Assembly: GCA_947631645.1 (NCBI GenBank)
Contig: CANRMD010000007.1
Location: forward strand, 1-62,781
DNA: 62,781 bases
Origin: Candidatus Gastranaerophilales bacterium
GTDB lineage: Bacteria; Cyanobacteriota; Vampirovibrionia; Gastranaerophilales; Gastranaerophilaceae
Direction: 5' to 3'
The number at the start of each line of letters is the position of its first letter. The stretch's first letter is position 1. The position numbers were made by a program, and so were the translations under genes. Below, in pieces: positions 31,499 to 36,494 of the stretch. The notes below the pieces were generated by a model that was given only the letters and a program-made list of their open reading frames with translations, did no database searches and was not told the DNA's origin.

Positions 31499-32266
31499 TT
31501 ATTTAATTTCAAGCATTAAGTTTGTAAATTCAATATCATCATAGTCAACCGAATTAACTTTATGCATATTATGTCCCGTTTTAATGGTAACGTTATTATT
31601 TTGTTTAATAAGTCCTTTTGGGATATTTATTTTTTGCCCGTCAGCATTAATTTTTATTTCCGCTATTTTATTTCCGTTAAAAAACACTTCAGGAGGGCTG
31701 GAATATGCCGTTAATACTTTTGATTGTCCCATTTTTTGAGCTTCTAAAGTATCTATACCTATAATTGAACCAATTACAAGAAATAATTCTTCATTTTCTT
31801 TTAAAGGATTAACATTAAAATCTTTTGTATAAAAATACCCGACCGAATTTAAGCTGAATTCTCCCGCATTAGCACTTCTTTCAGAATAAGAATCATCACC
31901 TACATGTATCATATCCGTTTCAACAATTATATCTTTAGGGGTAGTTTTTTCTATTCCTACCTGAATGGGATTTTTTCTTGATTGATTTAACGTCACCGAA
32001 TACGGCTTATAACCTGATTTTGCAATCGACATAATTGTAGGAGCATCAATTTTAGTTCCGAGTTTAAACGACCCGTCTTTTTTTGTTCTTGTTTCATAGT
32101 TTTTAGAGGGTATCTTTATTATAACTCCCTCTAAAGGCACATTTGTATTAGAATCATAAATTTGATTAATATTACGTCTTGTTTCTTTTTTTATTTCGCC
32201 CGAAATAACTTCTGAAATTGCGGGCATTCCAATCAATAATATAATTAAGCATAAGAGTTTTTTCAT
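31499..32266 (-). CDS. Secreted protein with carboxypeptidase-regulatory-like domain
   Basis: This 255-residue protein has a signal peptide (about 1-20, hydrophobic L-L-C-L-I-I-L-L core) and a beta-rich domain at about 40-105 with the pattern P-L-E-G-V-I-I-K-I and K-K-D-G-S-F-K-L-G, typical of carboxypeptidase regulatory-like folds. The C-terminal 150 residues are unassigned. A surface-exposed or periplasmic role is likely. The start at 32266 (ATG) is preferred to an in-frame TTG three codons upstream because it fits the ribosome-binding site GAGG and the signal peptide. Start codon and ribosome-binding site lie in the 3' arm of an inverted repeat. Confidence 0.7.
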   Translation of the reverse strand: MKKLLCLIILLIGMPAISEVISGEIKKETRRNINQIYDSNTNVPLEGVIIKIPSKNYETRTKKDGSFKLGTKIDAPTIMSIAKSGYKPYSVTLNQSRKNPIQVGIEKTTPKDIIVETDMIHVGDDSYSERSANAGEFSLNSVGYFYTKDFNVNPLKENEELFLVIGSIIGIDTLEAQKMGQSKVLTAYSSPPEVFFNGNKIAEIKINADGQKINIPKGLIKQNNNVTIKTGHNMHKVNSVDYDDIEFTNLMLEIK

Positions 32267-32306
32267 TATCCTCAAACCTTTTTTAAAAGTTTAAGGATAA
32301 TGAAAA
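32260..32306 (-). promoter_or_regulatory. Inverted repeat that would bury a ribosome-binding site and start codon
   Basis: A 13-bp perfect repeat: TTTTCATTATCCT at 32260-32272 pairs with 32294-32306, leaving a 21-base loop. In the mRNA (minus strand) the 3' arm contains GAGG, the ATG of the secreted-protein gene and the next two codons, so folding would hinder initiation. Confidence 0.45.
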
Positions 32307-32338: not shown

Positions 32339-34366
32339 TTACGGAATAAGACCTATTTTCTTTTGAATACGTTCATAGTAGCCTTCGCCAATAGACATAT
32401 TCCTGGTATTTCCTGAAGCATACTTAGTATACATTCCTATTGTGGAATTTCCGGTTGAAGTATAATCGTATCTAAGTAATAAAGCCATCATTTCAAGTGC
32501 TTTTACAGGGTCTTTTCTGTCTTCATAAGTATAGTGGGTGCCAAATTGATTATTAACTTCATCAACGGCACATTCGTGGAATTGACCTAAGCCGACAGCA
32601 GCTCCGTTATCACCGACAGCATCTATATCACATCCTGATTCATTACAGATTTGAGCAAACAATAATTCCGGAGTTACACACCCGTTACCCCATTTTTCCG
32701 ATGTACTCATTTCGGTTAAAAGGTCTGTAACTTCTTTTTCATCCATGCCCATTTGTTCACACAATCTGTCAAAGAATGTAGTAGCAGGATAACCTAAATT
32801 TTTAATAGTATCAAGCAATTCTTGTCCGTCATATTCGGAATCGGAAACTTTTGTATCTTTTTTTAGCTGCTCTGCTTTTTTTTCATTTAAAACACCTGTA
32901 ATATTATCAAGATCTGTTTGTAAACTGTCAAGATCTTTTTGCTTATTAGCTAATTGGGCATCTTGAACTTTTCCGACATTTTCTTTTGCCGTATCATAGG
33001 CTTGTGAGGCTTGTTCAATATTATTTTTATTATCGGTAGAACAAGTTTCTAAAATTTGTTTATCTAAACCTTCTTTTTCTTGTTCTAAACTTTTCAGTTC
33101 TTCTTCAGCAGCAGGCAAATCTTCGTTTTTAATATTATCTCTTGCCGGAATAAGTTCTTCATCTAAAACTCTTTGATCTTCATCACGTTTTGCTTCAGCT
33201 TTTGCTTTTTGATCTTCAAGTTCTGCTTTTTGTGCATCAATTTGACTTTGCACCTCAGGATCATCTGAAGATTCCGGCAATGCGGCAATCGCTGCCTCTA
33301 TAGAACTTATATTAGCCTCATCGTCAGCAATTACTGCTTGTTGATCAGAAACAGCATTTTCAGCTTCTTGTAATGATTGTTTTAAATCATTTACTACACC
33401 TTCCTGTTTTGTTATTGCATCAAGATTTTCTTTTAAATCATCTTTTAATTCTTGAGAAATTTTTTCATCATTTTCTACGGCTTCTAGATAAGCTTCTTTT
33501 GTTTCTTCTTCTTTATCCATTGCAGATTTAACTTCTTCATTTTCGCCCGAATATATTTTTCCCATTTCTTCACGGATGTCACCAATTTCGGATTGTTTAG
33601 AGGATTGTTCATTTTCAAGTTCTTCAATACTCATATTTTTATAATCTTTATTTTCTTTAACGGGGGCAGTTTCTTGTTGGTTTGTAACAGGGGTTACATT
33701 TGCATTAGGGCTTGATCCTCCTGACATTTGCTGTGCACTTTGAACCTGCTGCGGCTGCTGAGCTTGCTGCGACTGCTGAGTTTGCTGCGGTTCCGGAGTC
33801 TGTTCTTCAACTTCAGGCTCTGTCGGTTTTTCTGCTTCTTCAGTTTCCGGCTTAGTTTCTTCTTCAGTATTTATTTTTGAAGCTTCTTCCGAACTTTTAA
33901 CAATATCGTCCAACGATAAATTTTCCGCATTTCCGTCTAAGTTTTTCGCAGACTCTTGGAATGAAATAAATTCATCCTGATTGATTTCTCCGTTACCGTC
34001 GCTGTCATATTGAGCCTGGAAACCTTTATCCTGCATTAATAAATTCATTACATCCATCATTGTAGGAGTTTCTTGTTTTTCTGAAGCATTTTCGGAGTCT
34101 TCAATATTTTCTTGCTCTTTTTCTTCAGGGTCAACAAGTTTACCGTTTACGACTTCCAATTTTAATATATCACTTACATTCATTGAAATAACGTCAGGAG
34201 ATACATTATATTCGTCACTTATGAAATCTTTAAATTCTTTTGCATGAGTGAAAATACTAACTTCGGAATAATCACTATATGATGTATCTTCCTGACTTGT
34301 TCCGCTATTTTTTTCAAGTTCCTGAAGATAACTGATAAAACCCGCTTTTAATGATTGTATATCCAT
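32339..34366 (-). CDS. EF-hand / coiled-coil protein with C-terminal lytic-transglycosylase-like domain
   Basis: This 675-residue protein has four parts. Residues 1-80 are a domain shared with the next gene (52 of 80 identical without gaps) and not otherwise known to me. A single EF-hand loop follows at 121-132 (D-S-D-G-N-G-E-I-N-Q-D-E). Then comes a Pro/Gln/Glu-rich linker and a long coiled coil (about 240-530) rich in Glu, Lys, Gln and Ala. The C-terminal domain (about 550-675) resembles SLT/lysozyme-fold transglycosylases: C-N-E-S-G with likely catalytic E576, then A-A-V-G-L-G-Q-F-H. There is no signal peptide or membrane helix. It lies 22 bases after its paralogue, in the same operon. Confidence 0.75.
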   Translation of the reverse strand: MDIQSLKAGFISYLQELEKNSGTSQEDTSYSDYSEVSIFTHAKEFKDFISDEYNVSPDVISMNVSDILKLEVVNGKLVDPEEKEQENIEDSENASEKQETPTMMDVMNLLMQDKGFQAQYDSDGNGEINQDEFISFQESAKNLDGNAENLSLDDIVKSSEEASKINTEEETKPETEEAEKPTEPEVEEQTPEPQQTQQSQQAQQPQQVQSAQQMSGGSSPNANVTPVTNQQETAPVKENKDYKNMSIEELENEQSSKQSEIGDIREEMGKIYSGENEEVKSAMDKEEETKEAYLEAVENDEKISQELKDDLKENLDAITKQEGVVNDLKQSLQEAENAVSDQQAVIADDEANISSIEAAIAALPESSDDPEVQSQIDAQKAELEDQKAKAEAKRDEDQRVLDEELIPARDNIKNEDLPAAEEELKSLEQEKEGLDKQILETCSTDNKNNIEQASQAYDTAKENVGKVQDAQLANKQKDLDSLQTDLDNITGVLNEKKAEQLKKDTKVSDSEYDGQELLDTIKNLGYPATTFFDRLCEQMGMDEKEVTDLLTEMSTSEKWGNGCVTPELLFAQICNESGCDIDAVGDNGAAVGLGQFHECAVDEVNNQFGTHYTYEDRKDPVKALEMMALLLRYDYTSTGNSTIGMYTKYASGNTRNMSIGEGYYERIQKKIGLIP

Positions 34367-34388
34367 TTTACCACCTTTATATTATAAA

Positions 34389-36494
34389 TTAACTAACTTC
34401 TGTAGGAATAAATACTCTGAATGTTGCATGCCAACTAGCATAAGAAATAGATACAGTTGACTTAAAGTCACTTATTTCATTACCTTTGCCGTCAGCAATA
34501 AATGTATGTCCATACTGACCGTTGCTTTTTGTATGACCTGCATCATATTGACTCCAAACAACAATTGCCCCCGGTGGGAGTCCACCATCTTCATATGCCT
34601 TTTGAAGATCTTCTACGGCAAAAGAATCAGTAACTTCCGCCCATCCGTCGGCATTTGCGAGCACATCCGCCAATTGATAAGCATGTCCGTAGAAAACCTG
34701 ACCTAAACCTTTTTCAATAGCATCTTCAACACCTCCTGCACAATGACCGCCGGAGTATGGATTGTCTCCGTGCAAAGATTCGGCTGCATCAACCAAACTT
34801 TGACCTCGTTGAGGGTCATAAGCCCCTAATTTAGAATTCTTTGTTGAATACAATTTATTATTTTCAACTTTTTTTACTTCCTCAAGTTTTGTACTGACTT
34901 GTACTGTATAGTCCTGTTGTTTGGCTATATCTTCTTTTGCGGAAGTAATTGCATCTTCACGTGTTGTCGTATAATTATCTTTTGCTTCGATGTATGAATC
35001 TTTTAAATTCTTTAATTCCGGATTTTGTTCAAATACAACACCTTCGAGTTCTTCTTGCTCTTTTTTAAGTGCTTCAAGATTTTCATCGTTTTGTTCAACA
35101 CTTGCATTTAAACCGTCCAGTTCTTCTTGAGCATCATCTAACCTTTGTTGAGCACTTTCCATATTCGCTTTTGCTTCATCGGCTTGAGCTTGCATTGCTT
35201 CTCTTTCTTGCTGAGCGGCTTGAATTTGAGCATCTATTGCAGCTTCTTGCTGTGCTTTTGCCTCGGGGTGTTCAGGGTCATCAGGGATTGATGATTTTGA
35301 TGTTTCCAATTCCGATATATGAGCATCTAAATCAGCTACAATGCTCAAACAATTTTCCATTACCTGATTATATGTATCAACATTTTTATTTTCAATTTCA
35401 ATTTTATCTTCACAGGATTGTTTTTTCTCTTCCGTTTCACGCTGCTCAGCTTCCGCCAGTTCTATTTGCTGAGTAACTTCGGATAATCTGCTTGCTTCTT
35501 CGGTATTCTCTTTTTCTAAAGCATCCGTATAGTTTTCAAGTGATTCTTGCATTGCTTCTTTTAAAGGAGCAACAACATCATCTGTTCCGTTTTGTATTGC
35601 AGACAAGTTTTCTTGTTTTTCTGTCAAATCTTTGTTTGCAGTATCAAGTTCGGTTTTTAATTCCGAAGCAGACATGTTATCTAAATTAGATTTTTGGACA
35701 TCAGAATTATTAATTTGAGGAGCAACATTATTTGACGGAGAATATGATGCTTGAGGACTGCTGAAATTACCGGTACCACCCCCACTCGAAGGCGACGATG
35801 CATTTTGAGTCATCGGTTGAGTTTGAGGTTCCGATAGATTAGTTTCGGGAGTTTGAGTTTCGTTCGATTGAACAATTTCTGTTTCCTCATCAGGAACAAT
35901 TTCCGTTTCTTCAAATTGAGATGCTAAAAAGGCTGTTATATCATCAATTGAAATGTTTTCACTATTATTGTCTAATCCGCTTATAGAGTTTATAAAATCG
36001 GCATACTCATTTGTATCAAGCTGGCCGCTTCCGTCCGTATCAAGTTTTCCCATAAATTCTTTATTTTGCAGCAAAACATTTAAAACATCTGCTACAGAAC
36101 CTTGGTCAGAGTTTTGTACATCTTGTTCGGCTGCTGCAGATTGCGGGACTTCAGCCGAAACGGCATCTGAATTTTCTTCGGTACCTACATTTACATCTTC
36201 TTCAATTATTTCTGTTTCTTCATCATCGACTGTTTGAGTATCTGATTGTGTTTCAGGATCTACCAATTGCCCGTTTTTTATTTCAAGATTCAATATATCC
36301 GTAACATTCATTGACTTTATATTTAATGTTGACTGAAATTCATCGCTTATATAATCTTTAAATTCTTTGGCGTGTGTAAATATGCTAATATCGGAAAAAT
36401 CACTATAATCAGTCTCCTGATTAGTATTTCCCCTATTTTTTTCTAATTCTTGTAAATATGATATAAACCCAAATTTTATAGAATCAAGATCCAT
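34389..36494 (-). CDS. EF-hand / coiled-coil protein with C-terminal CHAP/NlpC-P60-like domain
   Basis: This 701-residue protein is the paralogue of the following gene. Residues 1-80 are the shared N-terminal domain, the EF-hand loop is at 152-163 (D-T-D-G-S-G-Q-L-D-T-N-E), a Ser/Thr/Pro/Gln linker follows, then a coiled coil (about 270-540). The C-terminal domain (about 565-701) has a Cys in G-G-H-C-A-G-G (C585) and a His in Q-Y-G-H-T-F (H663), the order expected of CHAP or NlpC/P60 cysteine amidases that cut peptidoglycan stem peptides. No signal peptide is seen. Upstream is a sigma-28-type promoter. Confidence 0.75.
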   Translation of the reverse strand: MDLDSIKFGFISYLQELEKNRGNTNQETDYSDFSDISIFTHAKEFKDYISDEFQSTLNIKSMNVTDILNLEIKNGQLVDPETQSDTQTVDDEETEIIEEDVNVGTEENSDAVSAEVPQSAAAEQDVQNSDQGSVADVLNVLLQNKEFMGKLDTDGSGQLDTNEYADFINSISGLDNNSENISIDDITAFLASQFEETEIVPDEETEIVQSNETQTPETNLSEPQTQPMTQNASSPSSGGGTGNFSSPQASYSPSNNVAPQINNSDVQKSNLDNMSASELKTELDTANKDLTEKQENLSAIQNGTDDVVAPLKEAMQESLENYTDALEKENTEEASRLSEVTQQIELAEAEQRETEEKKQSCEDKIEIENKNVDTYNQVMENCLSIVADLDAHISELETSKSSIPDDPEHPEAKAQQEAAIDAQIQAAQQEREAMQAQADEAKANMESAQQRLDDAQEELDGLNASVEQNDENLEALKKEQEELEGVVFEQNPELKNLKDSYIEAKDNYTTTREDAITSAKEDIAKQQDYTVQVSTKLEEVKKVENNKLYSTKNSKLGAYDPQRGQSLVDAAESLHGDNPYSGGHCAGGVEDAIEKGLGQVFYGHAYQLADVLANADGWAEVTDSFAVEDLQKAYEDGGLPPGAIVVWSQYDAGHTKSNGQYGHTFIADGKGNEISDFKSTVSISYASWHATFRVFIPTEVS

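Follow-up and report, generated by a model that had tools for sequence, protein, structure and literature searches.

The question raised by this locus is how wall-cutting enzymes that carry no Sec signal could reach a wall. Two adjacent genes of this kind, gene 1 and gene 2, are found at positions 32,339 to 36,494 of the window, i.e., the whole stretch of 62,781 nucleotides that was analysed (contig CANRMD010000007.1, assembly GCA_947631645.1). The window belongs to a Candidatus Gastranaerophilales bacterium, a member of a lineage of non-photosynthetic gut relatives of cyanobacteria. Both proteins begin with the same domain of about 80 residues, the N-domain, and we consider it probable that this domain is an address tag. 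The address itself is put forward with more reserve: judged from gene content, it may be the gate of a filament-less flagellar apparatus. Still more tentatively, we suggest that Gastranaerophilales have retained a second flagellar machine, one without a filament, as a specialised exporter apart from the flagellum, that the N-domain is a new cargo tag which makes a cytosolic enzyme a substrate of this machine, and that one bacterial family has used the tag to assemble an exchangeable set of enzymes that degrade walls.

One N-terminal domain on many catalytic ends

A sequence-only reading of the window had described two neighbouring minus-strand paralogues with 52 of 80 N-terminal residues identical, one EF-hand loop each and differing catalytic ends, and this description was confirmed. 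According to the positions of the open reading frames (ORFs), the genes are separated by 22 bases. The single EF-hand loops are canonical, DSDGNGEINQDE in gene 1 and DTDGSGQLDTNE in gene 2, both below the Pfam cut-offs, and the linker following the loop is acidic and polar in both proteins. The long coiled coil, which had been proposed for the pair, was upheld for gene 2, whose middle part matches SMC (1.2e-9) and ATG16 (4e-5). No coiled-coil model matched the middle of gene 1; its stalk was called from the sequence and the alignment to paralogues.

The end of gene 1 scored 36.2 bits against the SLT domain (PF01464; cut-off 21.3) over residues 564-666, and the position of E576 is occupied by Glu in all six aligned SLT members. 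With the domain over the curated cut-off and the catalytic Glu in place, gene 1 is classed as a predicted SLT lytic transglycosylase. C585 and H663 are kept in every one of the 21 aligned members of the gene 2 subfamily. Pfam gave no match for the Cys/His end of the gene 2 protein itself; CHAP (PF05257) matched 10 of the 21 subfamily members, at best 4.6e-6, and hhalign related the end class of gene 2 to the CHAP-positive class at 41% probability with the Cys and His aligned. The structure model of the CHAP-type domain had a mean pLDDT of 71.6. Sequence searches of PDB gave nothing useful, either with the CHAP-type profile (best E 0.051) or with each of the catalytic ends. The expectation of differing catalytic domains, with E576 in one protein and C585/H663 in the other, was borne out by the SLT score and the conservation of these residues.

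The genome of the window (1.87 Mb in 77 contigs, 94% complete) holds five clear copies of the N-domain; besides the two in the window there are a tandem pair on contig C20 and a single copy on contig C35. A sixth place, on contig C27 (E 0.053), was rejected, having no member in the local profile. All 35 genomes of the genus carry the domain, at 91 places (E up to 0.01), and on this ground a chance similarity of the two genes was rejected as well. Outside the genus one of 23 relatives matched, which was taken as a chance match. A profile of 85 rows found the N-domain in 29 of 192 genomes of the order (g1, 10; g34, 11; g35, 4; g38, 2; g18, 1; g23, 1). Of the 292 genomes sampled from the phylum, 18 had it, and these 18 belong to one family. 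The set extracted for comparison comprised 110 proteins, i.e., 89 ORFs of the genus and another 21 taken from a further 12 genomes, of which one is of the genus; 89 of 90 ORFs were kept, an amidohydrolase matching at residues 304-374 (L111) being discarded as chance. In all 110 the match starts no later than residue 43 of the ORF as called. Most of the larger offsets, among those inspected, belonged to ORFs whose called start precedes a Met located where the domain begins. An EF-hand loop lies in residues 71-330 of 86 of the 110 members; in shuffles the rate was 0.007 per sequence.

Searches of Pfam, NCBIfam and PDB brought up no convincing relative of the N-domain, which is previously undescribed. 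In Pfam the window row was unmatched, and two families matched one row each of the 85 (best 0.0037). The PDB search with the N-domain profile reached a best E of 0.12, and Foldseek with the model of N-domain and EF-hand returned three matches, the best (E 1.2) to a calcium-binding allergen. Helices were modelled at residues 3-21, 35-40 and 42-52, and a hairpin at 71-78. Among the titles and abstracts listed from open-licence literature, none linked enzymes of this sort, or the export of cargo by a type III system, to Gastranaerophilales or Melainabacteria.

A catalytic class was assigned to 100 of the 110 proteins. Two CHAP classes hold 31 and 21 of them, followed by an unidentified lysozyme-like class (14), esterase (8), phage-lysozyme-2-like (7), SLT (6), glucosaminidase (5), C39-like (3), CHAP-like (2), and VanY, YkuD_2 and GH108 with one each; the VanY, YkuD, GH108 and CHAP-like proteins were placed by hand. 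Of the ten unclassed proteins, four are truncated at the end of a contig, another has a length of 121 aa, and in the remaining five no catalytic end was recognised. Representatives of CHAP, SLT, glucosaminidase, VanY, YkuD_2, esterase and GH108 exceeded the Pfam cut-offs, so at least seven Pfam-recognised catalytic types are carried by the N-domain. The C39-like and phage-lysozyme-2-like matches stayed under the Pfam cut-off, and the lysozyme-like class has no Pfam support, its name resting on weak hhalign matches (72% glucosaminidase, 31% SLT) and on our own impression. The profile search which had been suggested along with the sequence-only reading thus showed that, within the genus, the N-domain stands in front of many kinds of catalytic domain. 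Since the domain extends beyond the two genes and E576, C585 and H663 are conserved throughout their aligned groups, both outcomes which that reading had named against itself, a domain confined to this pair and catalytic residues not kept in homologues, are excluded.

Two recurrent positions of N-domain genes were recognised. Position A is flanked by leuB/C/D-like and oadB/A-like genes, and position B, that of the window, by rml-like and FprA/ilvD-like genes (all names by inspection). The 35 proteins at position A comprise 31 of the CHAP classes, one YkuD and three unassigned, and the 17 at position B fall into six classes (lysozyme-like 7, SLT 6, and one each of VanY, phage-lysozyme-2-like and both CHAP classes). 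This swapping of catalytic ends at one locus slightly favours an outward, competitive or nutritional use. The N-domain of gene 1 is 85% identical to that of a CHAP-class paralogue on C20, and the catalytic ends of these two are unrelated (28%). Compared with five SLT orthologues, the N-domain of gene 1 is 29-35% identical, the SLT domains 42-75% and the middles 36-43%. The N-domain sequence of gene 1 tracks the genome, and not the enzyme, and in this the domain behaves as a genome-specific address tag; such a pattern would be expected of a tag whose receptor is specific to the genome. Over the set, N-domains of different classes from the same genome had a mean identity of 0.389 (89 pairs) versus 0.349 (sd 0.008) after permutation (0/2000; genome labels shuffled within class, 106 of the 110 rows). 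By sequence, the tag lies at or near the start, is common to unrelated enzymes and shows a greater likeness among copies of one genome than expected by chance, and the family consists of modular, multi-copy wall hydrolases without a Sec signal, with ends mostly predicted to cut walls.

The absence of a Sec signal, as stated in the sequence-only reading, held by hydropathy for both window proteins and for the family. For the 110 members, the highest hydropathy of any 11-residue stretch within residues 1-45 had a median of 0.75; the same measure gave 2.48-3.68 for six proteins of the window genome chosen by eye as signal-bearing. The highest values in the family (to 2.99), among those inspected, came mostly from ORFs with a start called upstream of the domain. 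No transmembrane (TM)-like segment of 19 residues was seen in 108 of the 110 proteins. Ordinary Sec-exported autolysins were rejected as an explanation, since a Sec-like start is absent.

A second flagellar-type apparatus as candidate reader

A second type of FlhA (about 700 aa) was present in all 25 genomes of the family that were tested, as was a soluble protein (about 490 aa) made of the cytosolic half of FlhA only, and the flagellar-type FlhA was present in four of the 25. In other families of the order FlhA matches were found in 22 of 22 genomes (second type 19, flagellar type 19, soluble 21; the types were distinguished by score and counted by us), and no match of FlhA type was found in the one genome tested outside the order. 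Second-type and flagellar FlhA separate deeply into two groups (support 100/100) in a tree built from 11 rows, and genome G145 is represented in both. The second-type proteins of four genomes share 76-92% identity, which speaks against decay, and are about 38% identical to flagellar FlhA. The window genome encodes its soluble protein (487 aa) on contig C34 (L152:8973-10433); such a protein is perhaps a cargo-sorting platform or adaptor.

FliP and FlhB were each found in 17 of 17 genomes. On contig C5 of the window genome one locus encodes FlgF/G-like, FlgB, FlgC, an SLT protein, FliE, FliF, an unassigned protein of 331 aa, FliH, FlhA and the start of the ATPase, which is cut by the contig end and was scored on the copy of genome G140 instead. 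FlgB, FlgC, FlgF/G-like, FliE and FliF are named from their best NCBIfam matches, and FlgC, FlgF/G, FliF and FlhA are below the curated cut-offs. Contig C6 carries FliM/N, FliO, FliP, FliQ and FliR, and contig C18 carries FlhB with an NPTH motif, which we take to be the cleavage site. Flagellin was found in none of seven genus genomes tested and in five of 25 genomes overall. This weakens the earlier suggestion that the enzymes open the wall for a flagellum, of which the part that stood is that a second flagellar-type export gate is encoded. A flagellin-type match was recorded in genome G130 (C1:201268-201672), which has the second-type FlhA and gave no flagellar-type FlhA match. Such gene sets are termed incomplete flagella in the literature (PMC4040986, PMC5877343, PMC9029806).

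According to two papers, early flagellar substrates need an FxxxPhi motif within residues 30-50 (PMC6123715) and an N-terminal hydrophobic signal (PMC8983047). Both window proteins have FxxxPhi at F45, and [EDQ]FxxY/F-Phi is found at domain position 36-52 in 95 of the 110 members. The form FxxYPhi occurs near residue 10 in 101 of 110, where shuffles gave 3.6%, and elsewhere in the domain in 100 of 110, where they gave 10.4%; as modelled, both sites may be faces of amphipathic helices. At the extreme N-terminus, where small non-polar residues would be looked for in an early substrate, the N-domain alignment shows mostly I/F/L and L/I, which are not small residues. In the export locus all six rod, FliE and SLT proteins carry FxxxPhi with F at 41-52. 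The window genome encodes an export gate, and the two window proteins have FxxxPhi within residues 30-50 and no Sec-like start.

We propose that the N-domain would be a common address tag read by one machine per species, the reader being the second filament-less flagellar-type type III apparatus (FlhA2, FlhB, FliPQR, FliH, FliI, FliF-FliE and rod proteins). The FxxxPhi near residue 41-45 of the tag would dock at FlhB, like the gate-recognition motif of early flagellar substrates, and the protein chain would be exported unfolded. Outside the cell Ca2+ would fold the EF-hand, a putative role for calcium in these proteins that we find plausible, and the coiled coil would be a stalk holding the catalytic end on peptidoglycan. 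In the tandem pair the SLT enzyme would cut the glycan strand and the CHAP-type enzyme the peptide or amide, in the cell's own wall or in that of neighbours. A predatory or epibiotic use, which had been considered from the sequence, found no support; the only named relative found in a scan with six peptide patterns of one protein was a Candidatus Gastranaerophilales metagenome-assembled genome (MAG). The earlier view of the shared 80 residues as a targeting or secretion module stood in so far as the N-domain heads many catalytic domains and, in gene 1, tracks the genome; secretion itself is proposed. The data are in keeping with a conserved secretion machine, for which a recognisable family of candidate cargo exists, in little-studied gut bacteria. 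With a portable tag and 110 candidate cargo proteins the idea is directly testable and, if true, it would explain how a flagellum-derived exporter finds non-flagellar cargo.

Evidence against export and competing explanations

Several observations weigh against the reading of the N-domain as a tag for the flagellar-type gate. The motif FxxxPhi is a weak one and the family represents one evolutionary event; 17 of 149 other ORFs of the window genome carry it with F at 41-52, and its presence is therefore compatible with export but not a proof. The six out of six in the export locus are no independent test, since the range 41-52 was drawn from those six, and two of them (F at 51 and 52) fall just outside residues 30-50. 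The N-domain genes lie outside the export loci, and no linkage was seen in the loci read; an exception in G130, where both are on the same contig about 11-15 kb apart, was taken as chance. Tag and machine do not co-vary, since the apparatus is order-wide and the N-domain is not. Within-genome homogenisation is modest, with a mean of 0.371 (80 pairs) when the window genome is left out, the permutation having been run on the full set only; the nearest N-domain was in the own genome for 21 of 90, and recent duplication with a swapped end would also yield such likeness. The N-domain model looks folded (pLDDT of eight blocks 53-84), NCBIfam HpnM matched four of the 85 N-domain rows (best 2.4e-4) next to three single weak matches, all taken as chance, and L114 and L116, the weakest places of the genus, as well as L183 and L184 gave no ORF passing the local profile. 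No FliG was identified among the genes of the apparatus. Finally, leaderless CHAP proteins without the tag occur in N-domain-negative genera. Six of 12 such loci gave an ORF with the pattern, five of these with a readable start (L186-L189, L191); these are short proteins with low-complexity N-termini, and their best hydropathy was 0.22-1.39. They suggest a wider non-Sec export that does not go via the N-domain tag.

We judge it unlikely that the enzymes are instead cytosolic, acting as programmed autolysins freed by holin- or phage-like self-lysis, with the N-domain keeping them inactive or clustered. The absent Sec signal agrees with this, as do the several ends of phage-endolysin type (CHAP, GH108, phage-lysozyme-2-like), but the calcium level of the cytosol is usually too low for EF-hand loops. 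Two viral-contig scans, with six peptide patterns each, gave no relative, for which reason a phage origin was rejected, and the recurrent neighbours (leu, oad, rml, FprA and ilvD-like, named by inspection) look metabolic, with no search aimed at holins. It also seems rather improbable that the N-domain is a signal for another Sec-independent machine, be it contractile injection, type VII, type I or an unknown one. A domain without convincing known relatives could have an unknown receptor, and the C35 copy of the window genome adjoins EmrAB/TolC-like efflux genes by inspection; against this, a contractile sheath gene was over the cut-off in none of 17 genomes (G182 gave a single weak match; no search was aimed at motors of type VII or type I), and contractile-system effectors were rejected on that result.

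Little credence is given to the N-domain as an assembly or localisation domain, for example one gathering the enzymes at a division or envelope complex, with export depending on another part of the chain. The small helical domain with a hairpin predicted by the model would suit such a role, and likeness within a genome is also expected from a common partner protein, but no other export signal was noticed and nearly all members are without a TM-like segment. That the enzymes serve solely to open the wall for the basal body, in the manner of FlgJ, appears very improbable. Rod-type genes and an SLT protein of 227 aa do occur in the export locus, but this protein may already do that job, and up to seven N-domain enzymes per genome, with esterase-type ends among them, seem excessive for one channel.

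The proposed tag-and-gate system can be set beside known ones. Polymorphic toxin and effector families have a common N-terminal trafficking domain and a variable C-terminal enzyme. The window family is like them in its common N-domain and in the exchange of C-terminal ends at one locus, and differs in that its ends are predicted to act on walls and esters and in that no recurrent immunity-like small gene adjoins the N-domain genes, among ORFs of at least 70 aa. FlgJ is an example of a wall-cutting domain delivered by the flagellar gate. The family shares a wall-cutting domain with hydrolases of the FlgJ/BB0259 type, and the 227-aa SLT protein of the export locus matches the BB0259 model best, below the cut-off; in contrast to these hydrolases, the family is multi-copy, has an EF-hand and a stalk, comprises many catalytic classes and has its genes away from the export locus. 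MakA is reported to be leaderless and exported by flagellar type III export, on which loss of the hook protein had no effect (PMC6123715). MakA-like exports and the window family have in common the absent Sec signal, the hydrophobic motif in the first 30-50 residues and an available flagellar-type gate, whereas the window family has a conserved, folded-looking tag on many enzymes and no flagellin, and its export is proposed. Filament-less flagellar basal bodies are reported for Buchnera (PMC8109811). Unlike in that account, there is here a separate FlhA paralogue, coexisting with flagellar FlhA in some relatives, together with a candidate cargo family and the soluble FlhA-C protein.

Layout of the two genes and minor observations

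The features of the two genes and of one neighbour are collected in Table 1.

Table 1. Positions of the features in the window, with residue ranges of the encoded proteins.
Feature	Positions	Strand	Remarks
Gene 1 (675 aa)	32339..34366	minus	N-domain, EF-hand loop, linker, coiled-coil-like stalk, predicted SLT lytic-transglycosylase domain
N-domain, gene 1 (residues 1-81)	34124..34366	minus	FISYL 10-14, FKDFI 45-49
EF-hand loop, gene 1 (residues 121-132)	33971..34006	minus	
Coiled-coil-like stalk, gene 1 (about residues 244-500)	32867..33637	minus	From sequence and alignment; approximate boundaries
SLT domain, gene 1 (residues 564-666)	32369..32677	minus	Catalytic E576 at 32639-32641
Gene 2 (701 aa)	34389..36494	minus	N-domain, EF-hand loop, linker, coiled coil, divergent CHAP-type Cys/His domain
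N-domain, gene 2 (residues 1-81)	36252..36494	minus	FISYL 10-14, FKDYI 45-49
EF-hand loop, gene 2 (residues 152-163)	36006..36041	minus	
Coiled coil, gene 2 (about residues 274-546)	34857..35675	minus	SMC match at residues 275-546; approximate boundaries
CHAP-type domain, gene 2 (about residues 570-701)	34392..34787	minus	C585 at 34740-34742, H663 at 34506-34508
Neighbour with CarboxypepD_reg domain and Sec-like start	31499..32275	minus	Kept in several genus genomes; functional tie putative

A tandem pair with the same architecture as that of the window was found in L118, from the MAG Candidatus Gastranaerophilales bacterium isolate Lapin-020. Its first gene (L118:459-2015) stops behind the coiled coil and lacks a catalytic end, and is either a broken gene or a stalk-only form. 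Genome G140 encodes an N-domain protein of 1786 aa (L166:186-5543) with one TM-like segment and no recognised catalytic end. The group of the CarboxypepD_reg neighbour had 11 members among the loci read, mostly adjoining an N-domain gene and rml-like genes.

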